From assembly GCA_003132025.1 (NCBI GenBank), contig PKWJ01000057.1:4847-39100 (forward strand): DNA of 34,254 bases, read 5' to 3'. Position 1 is the stretch's first letter. Each line of letters begins with the position of its first letter. The position numbers and the translations under genes were made by a program. This document shows positions 611 through 22,281 of this stretch, piece by piece. Below the pieces are notes generated by a model that was not told the DNA's origin, searched no databases, and saw only the letters and a list, made by a program, of their open reading frames with translations. The stretch is from Gammaproteobacteria bacterium. Lineage in GTDB: Bacteria > Pseudomonadota > Gammaproteobacteria > Steroidobacterales > Steroidobacteraceae.

Positions 611-1486
611 ATGTTACGCAGTTTGAGCGATCTAGAGGGTTATGCGATCCGTGCGACCGACGGTCTCATAGGGCACGTGAAGGATTTCTACTTCGATGAC
701 GAAGCCTGGGTGGTCCGCTACCTGGTGGTGGAGGCAGGCAGCTGGCTGCTGAGTCGTAAGGTATTGATCTCGCCGGTCGCCGTCGGGCAGCCAGATTGGA
801 CGGACAAGGTAATTCCCGTGTCGATCACCCGAGAGAAAGTCAAGAACAGCCCCGACATTGACACCGACAAACCTGTCTCGCGACAGCACGAGATGGAATA
901 TTTCGGCTATTACGGTTACTACCCGTACTATTGGGGCGGCGCCGGACTCTGGGGTGGAGGGGCCTATCCTGGCGCGATGCTAACAGGCGATGGTTACGCC
1001 GGGTCCGGTGCCGAATATCTCACAGCGCAAGCGGAGCAGGCTCGGGTGGCACGAGAGGTCGGTCGGCACGAGGATGACGATCCTCACCTGCGCAGCGGCA
1101 AAGGGGTGATGAAATATCACATCGAGGCGAGCGACGGCGGCATCGGCCACGTCCAGGGGCTGCTCCTCGACGATGAAACCTGGGCAATTAGATACCTCAT
1201 TGTGGACACCAGCAATTGGTGGCTCGGGCACCAGGTGCTCATCGCGCCAAAATGGATCCAGTACGTGAGCTGGTCCGAGCGCATGATCTCGGTGGATCTG
1301 ACCCGTCAGTTGATTAAGGATGCTCCGCCCTATCATTCAGCGGCGACGCTGGATCGAGACGGGGAAATAAACGTGCATAAACATTACAAACGTGCCGGCT
1401 ATTGGGCCGATGAGGTTAAGCTTGAGAATCCGCAATTCCGCGTCGTTAATTCCGCATCGCAACGAGCAATTCACAAGAACAACTGA
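611..1486 (+). CDS. PRC-barrel protein with two barrel repeats
   Basis: A 291-residue protein with two PRC-barrel repeats, at about residues 5-75 (YAIRATDGLIGHVKDFYFDD, then VRYLVV and VLISP) and 168-235 (YHIEASDGGIGHVQ, then IRYLIV and VLIAP). The Tyr/Gly-rich linker at about 95-125 contains YFGYYGYYPYYWGG. PRC-barrels are small beta-barrel modules found in RimM, photosynthetic reaction centre H subunits and many stress proteins; no enzymatic activity is implied. No signal peptide or membrane segment is evident, so it is probably cytosolic. The start is supported by AAGGAG eight bases upstream. A paralogue lies at 14052-14855 with the same two-repeat layout. The exact function is unknown; stress or envelope association is inferred from the BON and SPFH neighbours. 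Confidence 0.88.
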   Translation: MLRSLSDLEGYAIRATDGLIGHVKDFYFDDEAWVVRYLVVEAGSWLLSRKVLISPVAVGQPDWTDKVIPVSITREKVKNSPDIDTDKPVSRQHEMEYFGYYGYYPYYWGGAGLWGGGAYPGAMLTGDGYAGSGAEYLTAQAEQARVAREVGRHEDDDPHLRSGKGVMKYHIEASDGGIGHVQGLLLDDETWAIRYLIVDTSNWWLGHQVLIAPKWIQYVSWSERMISVDLTRQLIKDAPPYHSAATLDRDGEINVHKHYKRAGYWADEVKLENPQFRVVNSASQRAIHKNN

Positions 1487-13795: not shown

Positions 13796-14051
13796 ACTGT
13801 CAACTCCTCTTGCTGGTATTTGCGTCGCGACATCGCTTTGATTGGGCGGCGCCGTAGGAGCAGTAGACGACAGCCAGATGGGTACAGCCTTACCCGAGAA
13901 TTACAAAGTCGTAAGGAACGGCGCCTTGGGTACCAATGGGCCGGTCAAACCGAGCTAAAATGCGCCTGCCTCCCCTGGCGAATGATCGAATGCCTTGTTG
14001 GTCGAAGCGGTGGTACTTCGCTGTTTCGATAGCAGCGATGGAGAAAGTGCG

Positions 14052-14855
14052 ATGTTGCGTAACCTGAAGGATCTGCTGGGCTACACCTTGCATGCCACCG
14101 ACGGCACCATTGGCGATCTGAAGGATCTCTATTTTGATGACCAATCCTGGGTCGTCCGTTATCTCATCGTGGACACCGGGACATGGCTGTCCAGCCGCAA
14201 GGTGTTGGTGTCGCCAATTGCGATCGCAGGGTCAAGCGCGACAGGCAAGGTATTTCGGAGTTCACTCACCAGAGAGCAGGTGAAGAACAGTCCGGATATA
14301 GACACGGACACGCCGGTGTCGCGACAGCACGAATTGCGGCATCTCGATTACTACGGCCACCCCAAATATTGGGAGGGTGTGGGTCTGGCGGGCGGCATTT
14401 ACCCGAGCTGGCTGACGGGCCTTCACAACCGCGGGAACGCGGTGGAAGATCCCTGGTCGCAACCGGACCGGGCCCGACGAACGGATGAGGCCAACCAGGA
14501 CACAAACGCGCATCTTCACCTGCGCAGCTGCAATGCGGTGTTGCAATATCAGGTCCACGCGAGCGACGGGGAGATCGGCCACGTCGAGGACATGCTCGTC
14601 GACGAGGAGACGTGGGCCGTCCGCTACATTGTCGTGAACACGAGCAGCTGGTGGTTTGGCCACAAAGTGCTGATCGCGCCGCAATGGATCCAGAATGTGA
14701 GCTGGCCTGACCGGACCGTTACGGTGGATCTGGTTCGCCAGGCAGTGAAACTGGCTCCGCCATATGACTCAAGCGTGCCGCTCGATCCGGAGTTGGAACT
14801 GCGCATCTTCGAACACTATGGGCGCGAACTAGTGGACGCTGCGGCCAAGGTTTGA
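14052..14855 (+). CDS. PRC-barrel protein, paralogue of the gene at 611-1486
   Basis: A 267-residue protein with two PRC-barrel repeats, at about residues 5-70 (HATDGTIGDLKDLYFDD, then VRYLIV and VLVSP) and 155-220 (VHASDGEIGHVEDMLVDE, then VRYIVV and VLIAPQWI). It shares its opening and the motif VKNSPDIDTD with the paralogue at 611, but lacks most of the Tyr/Gly-rich linker. The ATG at 14052 is chosen over an upstream in-frame ATG because GGAG lies eight bases before it and the product then begins exactly like its paralogue. Function is unknown; a cytosolic stress role is a family-level guess. Confidence 0.87.
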   Translation: MLRNLKDLLGYTLHATDGTIGDLKDLYFDDQSWVVRYLIVDTGTWLSSRKVLVSPIAIAGSSATGKVFRSSLTREQVKNSPDIDTDTPVSRQHELRHLDYYGHPKYWEGVGLAGGIYPSWLTGLHNRGNAVEDPWSQPDRARRTDEANQDTNAHLHLRSCNAVLQYQVHASDGEIGHVEDMLVDEETWAVRYIVVNTSSWWFGHKVLIAPQWIQNVSWPDRTVTVDLVRQAVKLAPPYDSSVPLDPELELRIFEHYGRELVDAAAKV

Positions 14856-15337
14856 GAATCCGACGCTCCCGTCATCAAGATCCCTGCGCAACAAGTGCGT
14901 CGCCACGATATGAGACAAGCGCAGCAGCGATTCGACCGTCGCCGCGCAGTCCGGAGCCGGCAATGTGGTCCCGGACAGTTCGGGCGCCGGACTTTGATTT
15001 GGTGTGCCGGTTTCTGCGCGACGTCAGGCGCCTCGAGTGGCCGCGATTGGCCGCGATTGGCCACCACAAGCCTATCTTGTCAGTGAGTTAGTTGAATATC
15101 CCGGGACGCAAAGGGCCTCAATTCGCGCTAATAATGCCGAGGTCGCGAGTTCGAGTCTCACCCTAGCCACCACTCGATCGATTACTTGCAGGCGCTTGTT
15201 GGGTTCGTACGAAAGGCACCGCGTGACTTTTGCGTGACCCCAACTCGCACCCACCCGCTCCGCAGCATGAATCTACGCCGTTGAAGGCGCGCGAACTGAC
15301 CGGCATTGGCTCAAATCGTGCCTGATATAATTAATGT
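14856..15337. other. Gene-free stretch holding the first tRNA-Met scar
   Basis: About 480 bases without a convincing gene. It holds a short tandem repeat GGCCGCGATT at about 15042-15064 and the tRNA-Met 3'-fragment at 15125-15179. I see no integrase coding sequence on either strand. Composition and content change here from core-type genes to accessory genes. Confidence 0.5.
15125..15179 (+). repeat. Copy A: 3' fragment of a tRNA-Met gene (attachment-site scar)
   Basis: The segment reads as the 3' part of a tRNA: an anticodon-loop-like CTAATAA, the stem side TGCCG, the T arm GCGAG-TTCGAGT-CTCAC, the acceptor strand CCTAGCC, and ACCA. The 5' half (expected to start GGCTAGG) is missing, so it is not a functional tRNA. 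It matches copy C at 51 of 55 positions and copy B at 40 of 43 over the shared part. In copy C the loop is CTCATAA, anticodon CAT, as in elongator tRNA-Met. Such 3' fragments are what integrases leave at the far end of an inserted element. Confidence 0.75.
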
Positions 15338-16239
15338 ATGTACACGCCGCAAGCTGGAATCTTTGCTCTTGGAACCTCCTCTCATGCCTACTTGGAGTTT
15401 GACCTTCTGGATGCGAAGAAATGCAAGGAGTTCGCTTCTACAATCTCGGCGATCCGTGAACCAAGGACCACTACAGGAGGAGTGAACTTCGTTATTGGCT
15501 TTCGGCCTGAGCTCTGGTCCGCTGTCGTTCCAGACGACGCCCCCCCGGCGTGGAGGGCTTTAACAAGGAGATTCAGGGCGCAGAAGGGTTCGTCATGCCA
15601 AGCACTCAACACGATGCGCTGGTATGGCTGTCCGGCGGTGCCTATGACGTGGTCTTCGATATGGCCCGGTCGGTCATCCGTGATCTCGCAGGCTTAGCCT
15701 GCCTAGGGCAAGAGACCTCTAGTTGGTCCTACCGGCACGATCGCGACCTTACCGGATTTATAGATGGCTCGGAGAATCCGACGCTGCTCGACGCCCCTCT
15801 CGCAGCGCTCTTACCCGAGGGAGTTCCCGGTGCTGCGGGCACGATCCTGTTGCTTCAAAAGTGGAAACACCAAACAGCTAAGTGGGAAGCTCTGCCGATC
15901 GATCAGCAGGAGCGAATCATGGGACGCACCAAGCTCGACAGCATTGAACTCGAAAACAAGCCGTCTGACTCGCACGTCGCTCGCACAGATCAGGACAAGT
16001 TTGGAAGTATCTTTCGCCGCAATATGCCCTACGGAAATGTTGATGATCATGGCACTGTGTTTGTTGGGTTCAGCGCAGAGCAGAAGCGGCTTTCTACAAT
16101 GCTTAATAGCATGGCGGGCCTGGTCGCCGGTGCGCGCGATGCGCTCACCCGATTTACGCAGCCGTTGACCGGCTCCTATTATTTTGTCCCTTCCGTCGAG
16201 AGCTTGCGGCGCTTACGCGGCAACCCGGACCCGGCCTAA
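15338..16239 (+). pseudogene. DyP-type haem peroxidase (YfeX-like), disrupted by a frameshift
   Basis: Two overlapping frames together encode one ~300-residue DyP-type peroxidase, the normal length for the YfeX branch. The first (from ATG 15338) gives PQAGIFALGTSSHAYLEF up to VVPDDAPP. The second continues with GVEGFNKEIQGAEGF and carries the family motif GFIDG (bases 15757-15771), the proximal-His region SHVARTD and the distal-Arg region FRRNMPYGN. The break is in a run of seven C (15540-15546); eight C would restore a single frame. All catalytic residues lie after the break. These enzymes use haem and H2O2. It could be a real mutation, phase variation in the C-tract, or a base-calling error. 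No export signal is seen. Confidence 0.85.
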
Positions 16240-16276
16240 ACAAGATCAAGACATTGGTGGCAATGCGCCTTCGGCC

Positions 16277-16293
16277 GGCGTCGCGCCGACGCC
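16277..16293. terminator. Short GC-rich hairpin between convergent genes
   Basis: GGCGTCG (16277-16283) and CGACGCC (16287-16293) form a 7-bp stem with a 3-base loop, between the end of the DyP gene and the end of the convergent small acidic gene. No T-tract is present. The position fits a shared transcription end, but the evidence is only structural. Confidence 0.35.
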
Positions 16294-16306
16294 CGGAAGC
16301 TACCAT

Positions 16307-16555
16307 CTATTCGCCGTCCTCCTCCTCGTCGGCGTCGTCACCTGTAGGCTTATCCAACCTATCCTTATATTTGACATCGAACTCTTCGGGGATCTCGGTG
16401 CCTTCGTGGTTCGCGCGAATCGATGCCTCATTCTCACCCACATGTTCATCGTCTCGGTCATCGAAGTCATCTTCGGTGCCGCTCGTCGGATTCGCGGGAA
16501 GAGTCAACCCCTGAAAGTGGGGCGACGTGTGTGGTGCTTTGTATCGGGTGGTCAT
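16307..16555 (-). CDS. Small, very acidic, probably disordered protein
   Basis: An 82-residue protein I do not recognise. After a short basic start (MTTRYKAPHTSPHFQG) it is dominated by Asp and Glu (TEDDFDDRDDEHVGENEAS, and a tail ending DADEEEDGE), with no hydrophobic core, signal peptide or cysteines. It is therefore probably intrinsically disordered and cytosolic. The ATG at 16555 is supported by AGAGGA about eight bases upstream. It sits inside the first tRNA-Met-bounded block. Strongly acidic small proteins can be DNA mimics, histone-like partners or stress proteins, but nothing here selects among these. Confidence 0.6.
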   Translation of the reverse strand: MTTRYKAPHTSPHFQGLTLPANPTSGTEDDFDDRDDEHVGENEASIRANHEGTEIPEEFDVKYKDRLDKPTGDDADEEEDGE

Positions 16556-16639
16556 GCAAGGATCCTCTTGAACGGAATTACCGGTGAGCCCAGCTACCTC
16601 GCCCATTTGGACAGGTATCCGCCCGCGTGACTCTAAAGG

Positions 16640-17782
16640 TCAGTCAGTAGACGACCTGTAGGGTCGTCGTGACCTGGCTTCGCACCTAGGGTTTTCAGAT
16701 GAGCGAGCGGGTCTTGGACGTTTGAGTACCTCGCCGATCAGGGCATTGAGCTCATACACGTTGACAGGCTTTCTGAGCAGGGAAACATCGGCCAGTGGCG
16801 CAGGCTTGCCGATCTCTATGGACGTCCGAGTTGTCAACAACACCGCGGGAACGCTGTAGCCAAGCAATAGACGCGTTTTCCCGATCACTGCGAGGCCGTC
16901 ATCGCCGCCAGTGAGGTCCAAGTTCGCAATAATGAGGTCAATAGACGATGTCGCCATCCGCGCCCTCCGGGCTCGGTCGAGCGCTTCGTCCGCGTTGGCT
17001 GCCGCGTACACCCGATATCCTGCGCATAGCAGATAGATCCGTAAGGCGCCCAAAACCTCTCGGTCCTCATCGATTAAGAGGACGCGGCGTACGCGGGACG
17101 TTGGCCCGAGCGCCGCTGTCCGCTCGGGGCTGTCCACGGCAGATATCATCGACCGTTCGGCCGACTGTTGTTCAGCGCGCGGCGCGGACGACGCACTCGC
17201 CTCGCGCCGTTTTCCGCCAGTAGCTCGCGAAGTAAGGTTCGCGGGCGGTCCTGGCCATCGCGCTATCCCGGGCTCGGGGATCGCCAGGAATCCGTCAATT
17301 AGATCGGCTACGACATTGAGCGCTTGACGTTGCTGTTCAATCATTCTTACCGCCACCATGTCGATTCCCCGACCATCCCAGTCGCCGTGCAGCCGCAGCA
17401 TCGCCGTCAGTGGTTCGCGTAAATCGCGCTGCGCTCCATGCAGTAAGCAGCGACTGGCTCGACTGGCGTTATCAGATTGATGGCGCGCTCGGCGCAGTTC
17501 GGCAATGAGCCCTTCCACGCTTGCCAGATCGTCCTGGCATTTTTCGCTGGCACGAGATTTACGGCTTGCCGTTCGGGAACTCAGTCCGGCTGTCGTCGGT
17601 CCAGAGGCCAGCCTGTCGACATGTCCCGCGGCGATGACCGTACCGATGACGTCTATCGCCACCGGTGCAGCAACGGCGTATTCGACGAGATCCTTGGCAC
17701 CAGTTGGGTTCATGGCGTTGCGAATAGTGCCGCTGGGCGCAGCGGACTTCAGAGCGTTACGACGTCGAAGGAAACAACTCAT
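16640..17782 (-). CDS. Degenerate histidine-kinase/receiver protein lacking phospho-acceptors
   Basis: A 380-residue protein. A helical region at about 80-165 resembles a HisKA dimerisation domain (AQRDLREPLTAMLRLHGD), but the position normally occupied by His in H-D-L-R-x-P-L is Arg119. No ATPase domain follows. A linker (about 180-230) leads to a receiver domain (231-353): VLLIDED, then IDLIIANLDL, LLTTRTS and LLRKPVN. The phospho-acceptor Asp is replaced by Asn287, while the acidic pair and Lys338 remain. Phosphotransfer is thus unlikely and a protein-interaction or sequestering role is possible. The start is uncertain: neither the ATG at 17782 nor that at 17713 has a good ribosome-binding site. 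It lies in the first accessory block. Confidence 0.65.
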   Translation of the reverse strand: MSCFLRRRNALKSAAPSGTIRNAMNPTGAKDLVEYAVAAPVAIDVIGTVIAAGHVDRLASGPTTAGLSSRTASRKSRASEKCQDDLASVEGLIAELRRARHQSDNASRASRCLLHGAQRDLREPLTAMLRLHGDWDGRGIDMVAVRMIEQQRQALNVVADLIDGFLAIPEPGIARWPGPPANLTSRATGGKRREASASSAPRAEQQSAERSMISAVDSPERTAALGPTSRVRRVLLIDEDREVLGALRIYLLCAGYRVYAAANADEALDRARRARMATSSIDLIIANLDLTGGDDGLAVIGKTRLLLGYSVPAVLLTTRTSIEIGKPAPLADVSLLRKPVNVYELNALIGEVLKRPRPARSSENPRCEARSRRPYRSSTD

Positions 17783-18485
17783 GACGTGCCCGCCCGGTTT
17801 GCATGAGCCACTTTGGGTGTTTATGGAACGTGCCGTCGCGGTGCGCTCGCCATACCGCAGGATGATCCCGCAGATGCTTGGACACGCCCTACGCGCGTGG
17901 GATCCGCTGGATTAACCCGCAGGCGACGCATACCGCGGCATGCCTGCCTAGTTCGGAGGACCGGTCGGATTGCGGGCTGGCGAGAGTGGCGCAAGAATCG
18001 CGCCCGAGCCAATAGATACTCGCAAGAAGAAAGAGTCACGAGCCACCGATGACGGTACGCTGAGTATTATGTGATGTCCAGCATTATCGGTGTTATTGGG
18101 TAGGACACCGCACCTCCCTTGGCGACACCCATATAACTCCTGCCGATCAGCCGCTAGCCACTGCTGTCGGACCCGTTTGTTATCGATCGTCGCCCATTCG
18201 GTCTTTTAGGCTCAGAACGACGATCGGACATCCGGTCGTTCAGGAGGACGCCGGCGCATTCCAACAGCCGAGGTCGTGAGTTCGAGTGTCACCCTAGCCA
18301 CCAATCGATTCGAAAACATAGCGACGTGTCCGGCGCACACGAGAGAACGCGGAACCGGGGGCGCTTCCATCGTTTGCTCGACGGTTATCAGGTCGAATTC
18401 TGTTGTGCCATCCAGCCAAGTGGCGTTGGATGCCAGCATCGACTCGGAAGGCGGAAGCCGGCGTGCGGGTGTATGCGAGGGTGCT
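17783..18485. other. 700-base gene-poor stretch with the second tRNA-Met scar
   Basis: No coding region is convincing on either strand here. The only feature I can support is the tRNA-Met fragment at 18267-18309. The stretch forms the junction between the two accessory blocks and may contain eroded sequence from a lost gene. Confidence 0.5.
18267..18309 (+). repeat. Copy B: 3' fragment of a tRNA-Met gene (attachment-site scar)
   Basis: The T arm GTGAG-TTCGAGT-GTCAC, acceptor strand CCTAGCC and ACCA are followed by the shared ATCGAT. Forty of 43 positions match copy A. Similarity stops before the anticodon loop, so this copy is the shortest of the three. The three copies have different mismatches in the T stem; a perfect stem results from combining B's left side with the right side of A or C, as expected for decayed derivatives of one intact tRNA. 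Confidence 0.72.
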
Positions 18486-19427
18486 TCAGCGCAGAATAAA
18501 CGACTTCGCCGCCTGCTTCACGCGCGCGGCCGTCTCGTCACTGACGCTGGCGAGCACAGCGAGAAAATTCCGGTTCTCCATGGCAGAACCCAGGAAGGTC
18601 CAACGCAACGCTTGGTGCTGCACCTCGAGAAATTGCCTGCGGTTACCTTCAGACAATGTCCGACCGATGGCCCGCTCCAGCGACTTCAGGTCGAGCTCCG
18701 CCTGCTGCTTGAAACCCCCGTCGAGGAACGCGCCGATCTCGAAGTATTCCTGGATCGCAGTCGCAATGTCCTGTACTGAGCTGCGCTGAGCGAGCGACTT
18801 GAGCACGAGGCCATCGAGTTTGGCGTGCTGCGCCTCCTCAATCCAATGGTGCTTGAGCAAGCTCTTGAACTGCGGATCGAGATCCTGGTTGTCTTTGATG
18901 CTCCCGAGGTAGTGCCCCTGCGACATCCACTCGAGGCCTAGAATGGCAATGGCGACCGCCAGGGGCCCGTGCCCCAGAATCGCCTGGCATATGTCCTTGG
19001 CTGGACCGATCAGGCCGCACTCCGTGCCGAACTCGGCGTCGAACGCGCGGAGCATGGCGCTGAACAGCTTGCGATGTTTTTCTTCCTCGTCGGCAAAGTG
19101 GCGAAGCGCCTGCGCGCGGAAAGGCTCCGCAGCCGCGCCATCGTCGGCCTGATCGGAGATGAACGGCACGATAAACGCTTCCACAAGCTCGAAGAGTGCC
19201 AGGTAGCCGCGCGCCCGGATCTGGTTCAGCTTGAGTTTTTCCTGCGAGCTTAGGAAACCAAGTGGCTCCGTCTGCGCAAAGGTCTCGGGCAGAAACGGCC
19301 GCGTGAAATCCAAGCGCCTGCCCTCTCCAATCAGATCCTCCAGGTGCCAGTTCACGCGCCGCGAAGTTTCAAGCAGATGCTGGTAGTTCTGAAGCGGCGT
19401 CACGCTCGCATCTCCTAGAGTGCGCAT
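18486..19427 (-). CDS. Ferritin-like diiron-family protein
   Basis: A 313-residue all-helical protein with the ligand pattern of a ferritin-like diiron centre: a Glu at about 80-83 (FELVEAF), E115xxH118 in EEEKHRK, Glu166 in LEWMSQ, and E198xxH201 in EEAQHAK. The two E-x-x-H pairs about 80 residues apart fit the AurF-like N-oxygenase and related diiron oxygenases, but I cannot assign a subfamily or substrate. It is the last gene of the DUF4242-mddA-diiron operon, starting six bases after the mddA stop. The ATG at 19427 has a weak AAGAG; a GTG at 19403 preceded by AGGAG with ideal spacing is a serious alternative start. A redox role linked to methylated sulphur compounds is inferred from context only. 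Confidence 0.72.
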   Translation of the reverse strand: MRTLGDASVTPLQNYQHLLETSRRVNWHLEDLIGEGRRLDFTRPFLPETFAQTEPLGFLSSQEKLKLNQIRARGYLALFELVEAFIVPFISDQADDGAAAEPFRAQALRHFADEEEKHRKLFSAMLRAFDAEFGTECGLIGPAKDICQAILGHGPLAVAIAILGLEWMSQGHYLGSIKDNQDLDPQFKSLLKHHWIEEAQHAKLDGLVLKSLAQRSSVQDIATAIQEYFEIGAFLDGGFKQQAELDLKSLERAIGRTLSEGNRRQFLEVQHQALRWTFLGSAMENRNFLAVLASVSDETAARVKQAAKSFILR

Positions 19428-19433
19428 CAGCTC

Positions 19434-20189
19434 TTACTCAGCAACCCTCTTGCCCGACGAGGCGAGCCGAATCCTCGGCACGAGCATGCCCACCGTGGCG
19501 CGATACTGCCGGTAGCGCTCGCCGAAGTGCGCGATGAGGTCGCGCTCTTCGAACCAAATGCCAACGAAGATGTAGCCGGTGGTGGCCACCGCAAAAAACA
19601 GGTGCCCCAGGCTCATGTGCGGCGCCGCCCAGAAGGCGAGGATGAAGCCAGCATAGATCGGATGGCGCAGCCACCGATACAGGTAGGGCGTTACGAACGC
19701 AGGCTCCGGCGGAGTCTGTCCAATCAGCCGGGCGAGTCCTTGGCTCACCCCGAACAGTTGAAAGTGGCTGATGAGGAATGTGCTCAGGAGCAACAGCACC
19801 CATCCGCTCCACGACACAACGAGGAGCGCCTTGGAGCCGATGGGATCAACGACGGACCAAACTGTCTGCGGTAGTGGACGCCACTGCCAGCAGACCAGGG
19901 CGAGCACCAGGCTGGCAAATAGCACAAAAGTGCTGCGCTCGATCTCCTGAGGCACGATGCGCGTCCAGACTCGCTTGAACCACGAGCGCGCCATGATGCT
20001 GTGCTGAAGTGCAAACAACACCAGCAATCCCGCATCGATCAGCAATGAGCTGACGATCTGGCCGCCTGAACCTGAGTCGATCGACTTCGGCACCAGGACA
20101 TTCTCTACGAAGCCGATGGCGTACAGAAAAACGGCCAGAAAAAAAACATAAACTAGAACGCTATAGAGCGCGGTCAGTAGTTTTCTCAT
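19434..20189 (-). CDS. mddA: MddA-like methanethiol S-methyltransferase (integral membrane)
   Basis: A 251-residue protein with about six transmembrane segments. It opens MRKLLTALYSVLVYVFFLAV and then has FLYAIGFVENVLVPKSIDSG, typical of MddA. The C-terminal third has the S-adenosylmethionine-binding features of the isoprenylcysteine methyltransferase fold: RHPIYAGF and EERDLIAHFGERYRQYR. MddA enzymes methylate methanethiol to dimethyl sulphide using S-adenosylmethionine. A relative such as an NnrU-like methyltransferase cannot be fully excluded. The ATG at 20189 is fixed by AAGGAG seven bases upstream; the frame stays open above but that part is Arg/His-rich and not membrane-like. It lies between the DUF4242 and diiron genes in one operon. 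Confidence 0.75.
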   Translation of the reverse strand: MRKLLTALYSVLVYVFFLAVFLYAIGFVENVLVPKSIDSGSGGQIVSSLLIDAGLLVLFALQHSIMARSWFKRVWTRIVPQEIERSTFVLFASLVLALVCWQWRPLPQTVWSVVDPIGSKALLVVSWSGWVLLLLSTFLISHFQLFGVSQGLARLIGQTPPEPAFVTPYLYRWLRHPIYAGFILAFWAAPHMSLGHLFFAVATTGYIFVGIWFEERDLIAHFGERYRQYRATVGMLVPRIRLASSGKRVAE

Positions 20190-20212
20190 CACGGTCTCCT
20201 TGAGAGGGCCGG

Positions 20213-20497
20213 TCAGTTGTTTGCGGTGAGCGGATCGATGACCTGGGGAATCTCGATAATGCGCGTGATCGGGATCCCGCTGAGCTCCGCATGCTTTTGG
20301 ATCAACTCCTCGCTCGCGGCGAGATAGATGCAGAAGGTCTTGTCGCCGGCCACGTAGCTGTGCTGCCACTGAATGCCGTCGCCGATCTGCTCGATGGCCC
20401 GATTCGAGGCGCGTGCCGCGCCGCATAACTCCACGATCGACATCCCGCCTACTCCCGGGATATCGCGCTCGATCAGGTATCTGCGCAGATGTGCCAT
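20213..20497 (-). CDS. DUF4242 protein (SCO4226-like nickel-binding family)
   Basis: A 94-residue cytosolic protein with the ferredoxin-like layout of DUF4242: HLRRYLIERDIPGVG, then IQWQHSYVAGDKTFCIYLA and HAELSGIPITRIIEIPQVID. A Streptomyces member, SCO4226, binds nickel; whether this one binds metal is not known. The start at 20497 has a strong GGGAGGAAGG ribosome-binding site. It is the first gene of the operon with mddA (23 bases downstream) and the diiron gene, divergent from the LysR gene. Confidence 0.8.
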   Translation of the reverse strand: MAHLRRYLIERDIPGVGGMSIVELCGAARASNRAIEQIGDGIQWQHSYVAGDKTFCIYLAASEELIQKHAELSGIPITRIIEIPQVIDPLTANN

Positions 20498-20568
20498 GAC
20501 CTTCCTCCCTGTTGGCTCTATCTTCCGCCGCGCCCGCACGATGTTAAAGCTAAGAATCCTTGCAAGCA

Positions 20569-20585
20569 CTAAAGATAATCTTTAG
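20569..20585. promoter_or_regulatory. Palindrome between divergent LysR and DUF4242 genes, likely operator
   Basis: CTAAAGATAATCTTTAG is a perfect 8-bp inverted repeat around one central base. A looser pair AAGCTAA (20547-20553) and TTAGCTT (20582-20588) encloses it. The site is ten bases before the lysR start and about 70 bases before the DUF4242 start, where a LysR-type regulator would both control the operon and repress itself. It has the dyad, A/T-rich form of LysR boxes (T-N11-A type). Confidence 0.5.
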
Positions 20586-20594
20586 CTTATTGCT

Positions 20595-21551
20595 ATGGCG
20601 CTCTCGCACCTTAAGTCCCTCCAAGCGCTCGAGCTGGCGCTGCGGCTGGGGTCGCTCCGAGCCGCGGGGCGGATGCTTTGGATAACGCCCGCAGCGGTCG
20701 GGCAGCGGATCAAGGCTCTCGAGGACTATCTCGGCATAGATCTGGTGGTACGCGGTCGATCGGGCCTGCGGCCTACCTCGGAACTCTCGGGAGCACTCGA
20801 GCACCTGCGAGCTGCATTCCACGAGCTGGATACCGTTGCCACAATGTTGAACCTGCAGCGCGGCGAAGAGATCCACGTTGCGGCCACGTCAGACTTCGCC
20901 GATTTTTGGCTGAAGCCTCGCATCGGTAGCTTCATAGCCGAGCATCCGCACGTTCTTTTCTGTATCAACGGTGAAGGTGATGCGCCGTTACGCATCGGTC
21001 AGGTCGATTGCGAGATCAGCTTCGGCCCGCAACGGCCCAATTCGCGCGATGACCTACTGTTTCGGGATTTTGTGCTGCCGATAAGCTCCCCAGAAAACAC
21101 GCGTCGCATATCTAATGTTGCACTGCGGGAACGCCTCGAGGGGTTTCCGTTATTGCATCTCGACTTCTACAAGGAGGACCCGAGCACGCCCAATTGGGCC
21201 GCTTGGATCAAGGCCCAGCGGCTTAGACGAACGGAACCTAACCGTGGAATCCGTTTCCAGCGCATCAAGCTCGCACTCGAGGCGGTTCGCGCGAATGCGG
21301 GCTTGACCATCTGCGGGTTGGCGCTACTCGGCCCCTACATCGATGACGGCACGCTCAGCCTGCCGTTCGCTGTGTCGACCGGGCAATGGACGCATCACGC
21401 CTTTCAAGCCCATTTCCGTCCCGACGCGCTGCTTCGACCGCAAGTGAAGCGCTTTCGCGAATGGCTGGTGGCTCAGGCCGCAGTTACCCGAGATTGGCTC
21501 TTGCAGCGTGTTCAATCAGCCAAACCGCTGCAGCGGCCAGGGCGAAGATGA
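20595..21551 (+). CDS. LysR-family transcriptional regulator (divergent from the mddA operon)
   Basis: A 318-residue protein. An N-terminal winged helix-turn-helix (about 5-62) has LKSLQALELALRLGSLRAAG and ITPAAVGQRIKALEDYLG. A substrate-binding-like effector domain (about 92-300) follows, beginning EEIHVAATSDFADFWL and including the GcvA-like DCEISFG and GLTICGLALLGPYIDDGTL. The sequence resembles the GcvA branch. It faces the DUF4242-mddA-diiron operon across ~97 bases with a palindrome, so it most likely regulates that operon. No good ribosome-binding site precedes the ATG; translation could be leaderless. Effector unknown. Confidence 0.88.
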   Translation: MALSHLKSLQALELALRLGSLRAAGRMLWITPAAVGQRIKALEDYLGIDLVVRGRSGLRPTSELSGALEHLRAAFHELDTVATMLNLQRGEEIHVAATSDFADFWLKPRIGSFIAEHPHVLFCINGEGDAPLRIGQVDCEISFGPQRPNSRDDLLFRDFVLPISSPENTRRISNVALRERLEGFPLLHLDFYKEDPSTPNWAAWIKAQRLRRTEPNRGIRFQRIKLALEAVRANAGLTICGLALLGPYIDDGTLSLPFAVSTGQWTHHAFQAHFRPDALLRPQVKRFREWLVAQAAVTRDWLLQRVQSAKPLQRPGRR

Positions 21552-21653
21552 GGCGGTCTGGATGCCGGCGCCGCTACCACTTGTCACGTGGGTCCTCGCG
21601 GAATGCCGACCTTTTGTCGCCTTCAGGCTGCGTCCTCAGCCACAGCGCGCGGT

Positions 21654-21920
21654 TCAATTTCGCGCACTGCGCGCTTCGTTTTTTGGTGAGCGCTCGGCCG
21701 TCCGCAGCTCGTAGATTGCATTCAGGTTCAGCCAAAACTGCGCATCGCCACCGAAATAGCGCGCGAGCCGAACAGCCGTGTCTGCAGTGATGCCGCGGCG
21801 CTCAAGCACAATATCATTGATGCGCGAAGGTGCCAGACACAGCGCCTTGGCCAATGCATGCGCGCTCAGCCCCAGCGGCTCCAAGGGGTGCAGCGGCCGC
21901 ATTCCGCTCTTGAAAGCCAT
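21654..21920 (-). CDS. higA: HigA-like antitoxin (XRE family), orphaned
   Basis: An 88-residue protein with the HigA signature: PLEPLGLSAHALAKAL, then SRINDIVLERRGITADTAVR and LARYFGGDAQFWLNLNA. This is a complete helix-turn-helix antitoxin that normally binds HigB and represses the higBA promoter. The ATG at 21920 is preceded by AGGAGATAGG. A normal HigB toxin should lie just upstream, but only its C-terminal remnant is found (21933-22025). The N-terminus is slightly different from common HigA, and the tail after YELRTAE is unusually basic. Converges on the lysR gene. Confidence 0.8.
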   Translation of the reverse strand: MAFKSGMRPLHPLEPLGLSAHALAKALCLAPSRINDIVLERRGITADTAVRLARYFGGDAQFWLNLNAIYELRTAERSPKNEARSARN

Positions 21921-21932
21921 CACCCTATCTCC

Positions 21933-22025
21933 TCACGCATAATGGTTCGTAATCTCAACATCGATCGGTTCCGCATTGGTCTATTGGAAGCAGATGCGCG
22001 ATTTGTCATTGATGCGGATGCTGTG
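21933..22025 (-). pseudogene. higB: Remnant of the HigB toxin C-terminus with an in-frame TAG
   Basis: Reading the minus strand from 22025, the frame gives HSIRINDKSRICFQ, then TAG, then TNAEPIDVEITNHYA and TGA, ending 13 bases before the higA ATG. HigB toxins end with SIRINDQWRICFRW and then DVEIVDYH, so the remnant lines up residue by residue and TAG stands where the conserved Trp (TGG) is expected. Upstream of the His the similarity fades within about ten codons. The tRNA-Met scar begins 85 bases further on, so the toxin's 5' part may have been removed by the recombination at that junction. Confidence 0.7.
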
Positions 22026-22109
22026 TGCTCGGCTGTGCTCAGTGATGCCAATTGCAACGGACGCCGCGCGGCTAGTGATTGAAATTAAAGTCTCTGAAAT
22101 CCAAACGCT

Positions 22110-22164
22110 GCGCTCATAATGCCGCTGTCGCGAGTTCGAGTCTCACCCTAGCCACCAATCGATC
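22110..22164 (+). repeat. Copy C: 3' fragment of a tRNA-Met gene, anticodon loop kept
   Basis: This copy keeps an anticodon loop CTCATAA (anticodon CAT, identical to the loop of E. coli elongator tRNA-Met), then TGCCG, the T arm around TTCGAGT, the acceptor strand CCTAGCC and ACCA. Before the loop, GCG can still pair partly with TGCCG, but the D arm and 5' acceptor strand are missing, so it is not a functional tRNA. It closes the second accessory block. Confidence 0.77.
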
Positions 22165-22281
22165 AAGCACTTACGAGCCCTCGCCGAACACAACGATGGA
22201 CAATGCGGGACTTTTCCGGCACCTCATTGTGGTGACATGATCAGACGTCTGGCCAAGCAGGTGATGCCCCTGGGGTCCAAG

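Follow-up and report, generated by a model that had tools for sequence, protein, structure and literature searches.

The window analysed here, 34,254 bases of contig PKWJ01000057.1 (C60:4847-39100) from a draft genome of the Steroidobacteraceae, holds three direct repeats of the 3' end of a methionine tRNA (tRNA-Met) gene, designated A, B and C, which bound two blocks of accessory genes (Table 1). The repeats are tRNA-Met integration scars. Very probably, successive integrative elements inserted at the 3' half of elongator tRNA-Met and built up a stack, and their integrases have since been lost. At least two elements, and probably three or more, would have taken part, with A-B and B-C presumably representing one element each. 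A tyrosine integrase gene at the tRNA-side end of an element, reading towards the tRNA, would drive insertion; each insertion would rebuild the tRNA from the element's own copy and displace the old 3' half to the far end, where it would remain as A, B or C. The integrase genes would have been lost afterwards. An earlier note, made from the letters of the window alone, had proposed modules stacked at one tRNA-Met locus, and this proposal is now supported by the scars, by element ends, by tRNA-Met in sibling species and by the order of parts in one sibling, G004.

The draft genome comprises 61 contigs (4,201,539 bases; 97.0% complete, 4.67% estimated contamination). The comparison set contains 98 genomes including this one (G000), among them 14 sibling species of the genus with one genome per species.

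Scars, integrase remnants and element ends

The three repeats lie where the earlier note placed them. A and C agree in 51 of 55 bases, A and B in 40 of 43; the spacings, taken from start to start, are 3131 and 3854 bases. As that note also reported, C keeps the anticodon loop CTCATAA. Scar A reads CTAATAA at this place, and B lacks that part. A 24-base core of the repeat, with up to three mismatches allowed, has three matches in the window, and 100 shuffles of the window yield no match at all. The earlier note had suggested looking for further copies in the genome: the core occurs three times in 4,201,539 bases, all on a single strand of one contig (reversed control 0). A dispersed tRNA-derived repeat is rejected on this count of three copies at one locus. 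An additional shortened copy on contig C22 might recall such a repeat, but the single strand and locus, the empty shuffles and the element ends attached to the scars leave dispersal, or a chance likeness to tRNA, with a negligible probability.

The C22 copy (L106:8447-8481) is a tRNA-Met 3' half whose 35 bases are identical to the tRNA sequence used for comparison and which ends early in the T stem. A full-length tyrosine integrase gene (L106:8841-9980) follows 0.36 kb downstream of it, and 40 bases separate the end of this gene from the 3' end of tRNA-Arg(ACG). Outside the window, at C60:43457-43487 (L046:4458-4488), candidate scar D shares 16 exact bases on the same strand with the tRNA-Met end and its flank; it is perhaps a fourth and oldest scar, although a doubtful one.

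As reference for the scars, a consensus of the 3' half was used that covers 45 bases and extends from the anticodon loop as far as CCA. The scar in G014 matches it exactly, A differs at 2 positions, C at 3 and B at 6, one of the six in B falling within its last 37 bases. A and C have in common a T-to-C change in the T stem that is found neither in B nor in the C22 copy nor in the G014 scar. By our reading the change would disrupt base pairing in the T stem; two independent origins are possible, as is transfer between A and C. Passage between scars would suit an account in which homologous recombination copied or moved some scars and some blocks are products of recombination between repeats. 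The repeats are, however, merely 43-55 bases long, and a single transition can arise twice. Moreover, C stands after a foreign element end and A before an integrase end, as site-specific insertion predicts, which makes recombination between scars an improbable origin.

Integrase sequence survives beside the scars. The DNA directly after scar A is 84% identical over 96 bases to the end of the integrase gene in G008, the sibling with the strongest matches to the array stretch. In translation this remnant reads CELGSRKSHAVPFVRTQQAPASN, with 16 of 23 residues identical to the G008 integrase, which adjoins tRNA-Met. None of 1500 random 260-base contig windows reached the integrase-end score of A, compared with 13 for C, 72 for D and 921 for B. 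On sequence comparison, A is thus flanked by an integrase remnant. A decayed second one is probable at C, whose downstream flank scores 37 at the DNA level against the integrase end of G008, 36 against G002, 29 against G009 and 20 against G003 (null maximum 30 in up to 400 random pairs). The flanks of B and D score at most 23 against everything compared, and the candidate remnants there are rejected as chance-level by the random windows.

The earlier note described the blocks as lacking an integrase. This stands insofar as contig C60 has no PF00589 match, and hence no intact integrase domain; it does not stand for the stub after A and, probably, that after C. Similarly, the tyrosine recombinase for which the note proposed a search is not present intact on C60, but a full-length one is encoded on C22 beside tRNA-Arg(ACG). 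The presumed order of insertion, with the youngest element nearest the tRNA, fits a stub that is better kept at A than at C; B is uninformative.

A conserved right end of an integrative element runs into scar C. It was recognised with a hidden Markov model (HMM) built from four sequences, one each from G003 and G014 and two from G009, and its pairwise scores of 40-95 exceed the null maximum of 30. The same 96-base end precedes scars in these three sibling species. G009 carries two copies, separated by 8.2 kb, on a contig that gave no integrase match, and one of them has no scar after it. Genes for a PIN-domain protein and a PemK-like protein are located between these two copies (L090:7721-9840). 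The HMM detected nothing before A or B up to an E-value of 5.

The preserved ends raise the question of whether the blocks were mobile without integrases of their own. An integrase of the same family, encoded at another locus, might have acted in cis or in trans on integrase-less blocks that still had working ends (cis-mobilisable elements or satellites). At both A and C, 96 bases of element end are kept and the integrase body is gone; a related full-length integrase on C22 would offer a mover in trans, and the paired right ends of G009, on a contig without an integrase match, point the same way, although one of them is scarless. Nevertheless, the kept left end is itself integrase-coding sequence, which speaks for a former resident integrase, and the C22 integrase adjoins tRNA-Arg(ACG) rather than tRNA-Met. 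Scar B has no recognisable ends, and no sign of excision or transfer was seen. Mobile integrase-less blocks are therefore unlikely, though they are the most serious alternative. The earlier note had suggested movement in trans or RecA-mediated recombination between scars; movement in trans is possible, but neither process is needed as an explanation.

The tRNA-Met locus in sibling species and in the assembly

Stacking at tRNA-Met is also seen where the tRNA gene itself is assembled. With up to two mismatches, the 24-base core is matched in 18 of the 98 genomes, the present one included. The relatives contribute 19 matching loci. An intact tRNA-Met(CAT) is present at 16 of them, and the other 3 have just a fragment, a further scar. 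Integrase sequence converges on tRNA-Met in G008, G002, G003 and G009; in G008, a partial integrase gene (PF00589) lies no more than 10 bases past the intact tRNA and reads towards it. Two siblings, G004 and G002, carry tRNA-Met and scars on one contig. G002 has an intact tRNA-Met with integrase sequence adjoining it and a scar of 78% identity 7.5 kb away. On contig C109 of G004, an intact tRNA-Met is accompanied by a scar in the same orientation 13.8 kb away, with a match to an integrase remnant between them. Beside this inner remnant lies a 15-base exact tRNA-Met end, as the stacking model had predicted before the place was looked at, giving the order tRNA, scar with integrase remnant, scar.

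Relatives of the C22 integrase are encoded at 30 loci in named genomes. At 15 of these loci a tRNA 3' end follows no more than 250 bases downstream, convergent in every case. The 600 bases upstream contain no tRNA at any of the 30, although several loci end sooner on one side or the other. The tRNAs nearest to these integrases are Arg(ACG) in seven cases and Met, Pro, Phe and Lys in two each. As a unit, the 11.8-kb stretch around the array was seen in none of the 14 sibling species among the matches scored (20 candidates per genome), which are scattered pieces.

A broader reading would make small integrase-less modules at tRNA-Met a feature of the whole genus. Integrases encoded at other loci would shuffle them, and the array would thereby serve as a slow, tRNA-anchored cassette store. 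Such modules would keep two ends only, an integrase 3' stub and the conserved 96-base arm. This reading is speculative and appears rather improbable.

The search for an intact tRNA-Met gene that the earlier note had proposed succeeds in the relatives (16 of the 19 loci) and fails in the genome's own assembly, where the 24-mer search would have shown such a gene. Two CAT tRNAs of the genome (L007 and L023) were rejected as the target, their acceptor stems being different. The tRNA scan covered 30 loci, and 11 of the 41 Rfam matches lie outside those loci. Within the window, ARAGORN found no tRNA and Rfam gave no match at gathering scores.

Gene order in siblings suggests where the missing gene belongs. 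In G008, tRNA-Gln(TTG) is followed by several genes including ychF (TIGR00092, 503.9 bits) and then by tRNA-Met; the stretch between the two tRNAs presumably also includes prs, rplY and pth. In all 7 sibling genomes looked at, tRNA-Gln lies 4.0-6.9 kb upstream of tRNA-Met. Contig C36 of the present genome follows G008 at 82-83% identity up to tRNA-Gln, and past it no longer match is found (40 of 353 candidates scored). Where the G008 match stops, 260 bases after tRNA-Gln(TTG), an integrase match (C36:183340-184186) perhaps marks another site of island insertion, close to where the missing tRNA-Met would lie. YchF was not found in the genome either, the best match being 41% over 129 residues (all 23 candidates scored). 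Because ychF is missing too and the G008 match ends at tRNA-Gln, the assembly most likely fails to cover the tRNA-Met stretch, and little can be concluded about the biology from the gap. The array would then lie downstream of a tRNA-Met that the assembly misses. An attempt to join C36 to C60 through a shared repeat was unsuccessful, as C60:1-6000 and C36:186000-205334 do not match.

An incomplete assembly invites the suspicion that C60 was put together wrongly or comes from a different organism of the metagenome bin, in which case the array and the missing tRNA would be unrelated. The genome is a draft in 61 contigs with 4.67% estimated contamination, and C60 begins at its left end with a piece of a group II intron (RF02003, 96.4 bits; L044:56-194, outside the window), which is the likely cause of the assembly break. 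Left of the array, the matches to G008 are all short and spread over several of its contigs (37 of 172 candidates scored). Yet the alignment with G008 resumes to the right at about C60:56.4 kb with 78-79% identity, C60:44.1-48.8 kb aligns with G001 at 66-69%, and the tRNA-Met end in the scars matches the genus. An error of assembly or binning is thus very improbable.

Several observations weigh against serial insertion at tRNA-Met. The remnant at C is modest, being equalled by 13 of the 1500 random windows, and the upstream flank of A is only marginal, with a score of 28 against G014 in one of several comparisons (99th percentile 27, null maximum 30). Neither flank of scar B holds a recognisable element end, so that A-B and B-C are unproven as two separate elements. 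The base change shared by A and C is not predicted by independent displacement. Candidate scar D is weak (nhmmer E 3.3), 72 of the 1500 windows being as good for an integrase remnant. Finally, the link from C60 to tRNA-Met is unassembled, and no empty site was seen.

Cargo and surroundings of the array

Block 1, between A and B, and block 2, between B and C, carry different genes (Table 1). The peroxidase of block 1 is split over two frames, with a run of seven C (15540-15546) near the frame change; decay, phase variation and sequencing error are indistinguishable here. Taken alone, the part at 15338-15697 has no domain match, and we read it as belonging to the peroxidase gene. The response-regulator-like gene and the adjacent 99-residue open reading frame (ORF) have a homologue of 80-83% DNA identity right after tRNA-Ser(TGA) in G008 (contig C4, L089:8849-10617), so this module, judged by DNA similarity, sits at a different tRNA in that species. 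A supposed tRNA-Met scar beside the homologue proved to be the 3' end of the intact tRNA-Ser(TGA), which has a similar T arm. Compared with defence models, the response regulator gave one weak match (PD-T4-6, 27.1 bits).

In block 2, a gap of 0.1 kb separates the HigA antitoxin gene from the element end that runs into scar C; a HigB remnant beside it was considered and rejected, as no Pfam match was obtained. Methyltransferase homologues occur in sibling loci L104 and L105, and homologues of the LysR pair in L097; no tRNA was found in any of the three. No conjugation genes were recognised among the 17 window proteins in Pfam and NCBIfam scans, which did not amount to a systematic search for transfer genes.

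Table 1. Features of the array, in window coordinates
Feature	Position	Strand	Basis or remark
Scar A	15125..15179	+	tRNA-Met 3' half, anticodon loop through CCA, plus 7 bases
Integrase C-terminal remnant	15181..15249	-	final 23 codons, at the left end of block 1 and directed towards scar A
DyP-type peroxidase, block 1	15338..16239	+	two overlapping frames; PF20628 and TIGR01413 on 15550-16239
99-residue acidic ORF, block 1	16307..16606	-	no Pfam match; DNA conserved in G008:C4 next to regulator
Response-regulator-like protein, block 1	16640..17782	-	PF00072, E 2.3e-6, 28.2 bits (curated cut-off 30.2)
Scar B	18267..18309	+	final 37 bases of tRNA-Met plus 6 bases
313-residue protein, weakly AurF-like, block 2	18486..19427	-	PF11583, E 0.0024, 17.5 bits (cut-off 29.6)
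Methanethiol S-methyltransferase (MddA), block 2	19434..20192	-	NF045656, 324.3 bits (cut-off 270)
SCO4226-like small protein, block 2	20213..20569	-	PF14026, 67.4 bits
LysR-type regulator, block 2	20595..21551	+	PF03466, PF00126
HigA-family antitoxin, block 2	21654..21923	-	TIGR02607, 77.5 bits (cut-off 47.7)
Conserved right end of integrative element	22018..22113	+	runs into scar C; HMM E 4.2e-19
Scar C	22110..22164	+	tRNA-Met 3' half, anticodon loop CTCATAA, plus 7 bases
Probable decayed integrase 3' end	22192..22260	-	LLGQTSDHVTT ... RKSPALSIV, reading towards scar C

Three ORFs encoding PRC-barrel proteins are found on C60 (window 611-1486, window 13995-14855 and L044:808-1920). Two of them flank a stretch with MoxR/Bat-like genes, and the MoxR/Bat part is also present in sibling G011.

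Relation to known systems and meaning

Stacking and decay at tRNA ends is an already known and fairly ordinary route by which bacteria gain extra genes. In its account of accretion, a review describes decay of an element to a cis-mobilisable element (CIME), after which the next element inserts at the displaced end of the target gene (PMC5704250). The array resembles this process in its site-specific insertion, its decayed integration genes and its tandem arrangement bounded by target-gene ends (PMC5704250). It differs from that account in its size, with a probable membership of three or more, and in the lack of an intact integrase domain on C60. Measured as a CIME array, it has the scar bounds, lacks the integrase domain and shows element ends at A and C only.

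The ssrA islands of Dehalococcoides form arrays of ssrA-end repeats; 15 islands have no integration module and are proposed to be cis-mobilisable (PMC3146451). They likewise show direct repeats of an RNA-gene 3' end downstream of one gene, tandem islands, and integration genes on the reverse strand at the left boundary (PMC3146451). Their target is, however, the transfer-messenger RNA (tmRNA) gene and their enzyme a serine recombinase, instead of tRNA-Met and a tyrosine integrase (PMC3146451).

The Islander collection, whose islands are recognised by a tRNA gene together with a fragment of it, reports 125 tandems of at least two islands and 4 of at least three, with an integrase of its own required for each member (PMC4383910). 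The scars agree with its islands in being 3' tRNA fragments in the orientation of the tRNA, with identity from the anticodon loop, which we take to be Islander site A (2083 islands; PMC4383910). A, B and C are indeed fragments, in one orientation, of a known target tRNA, but in place of an integrase gene inside the island there are only remnants, at A and probably at C. The Islander filter, as described, requires both an integrase gene and a tRNA, neither of which is in the assembled part, and would reject the array (PMC4383910).

The Methylophilaceae have additive flexible islands in which the end of a tRNA-Lys gene is repeated, and at tRNA-Met(cat) they carry islands that resemble tycheposons (PMC10872708). 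Recurring tRNA-end repeats beside variable modules, and an island border at tRNA-Met with a tyrosine recombinase, are common to both cases (PMC10872708). The lineage is a different one, and the likeness to tycheposons is one of description (PMC10872708).

An apparently integrase-free repeat array can thus carry an integrase stub, and the lack of an integrase can reflect decay instead of an unknown mover. In several species of the genus, which is represented mostly by draft genomes, tRNA-Met is a hot spot for insertions. Here, the cargo of the tRNA-Met array includes a gene for methanethiol S-methyltransferase, located between the two scars B and C.

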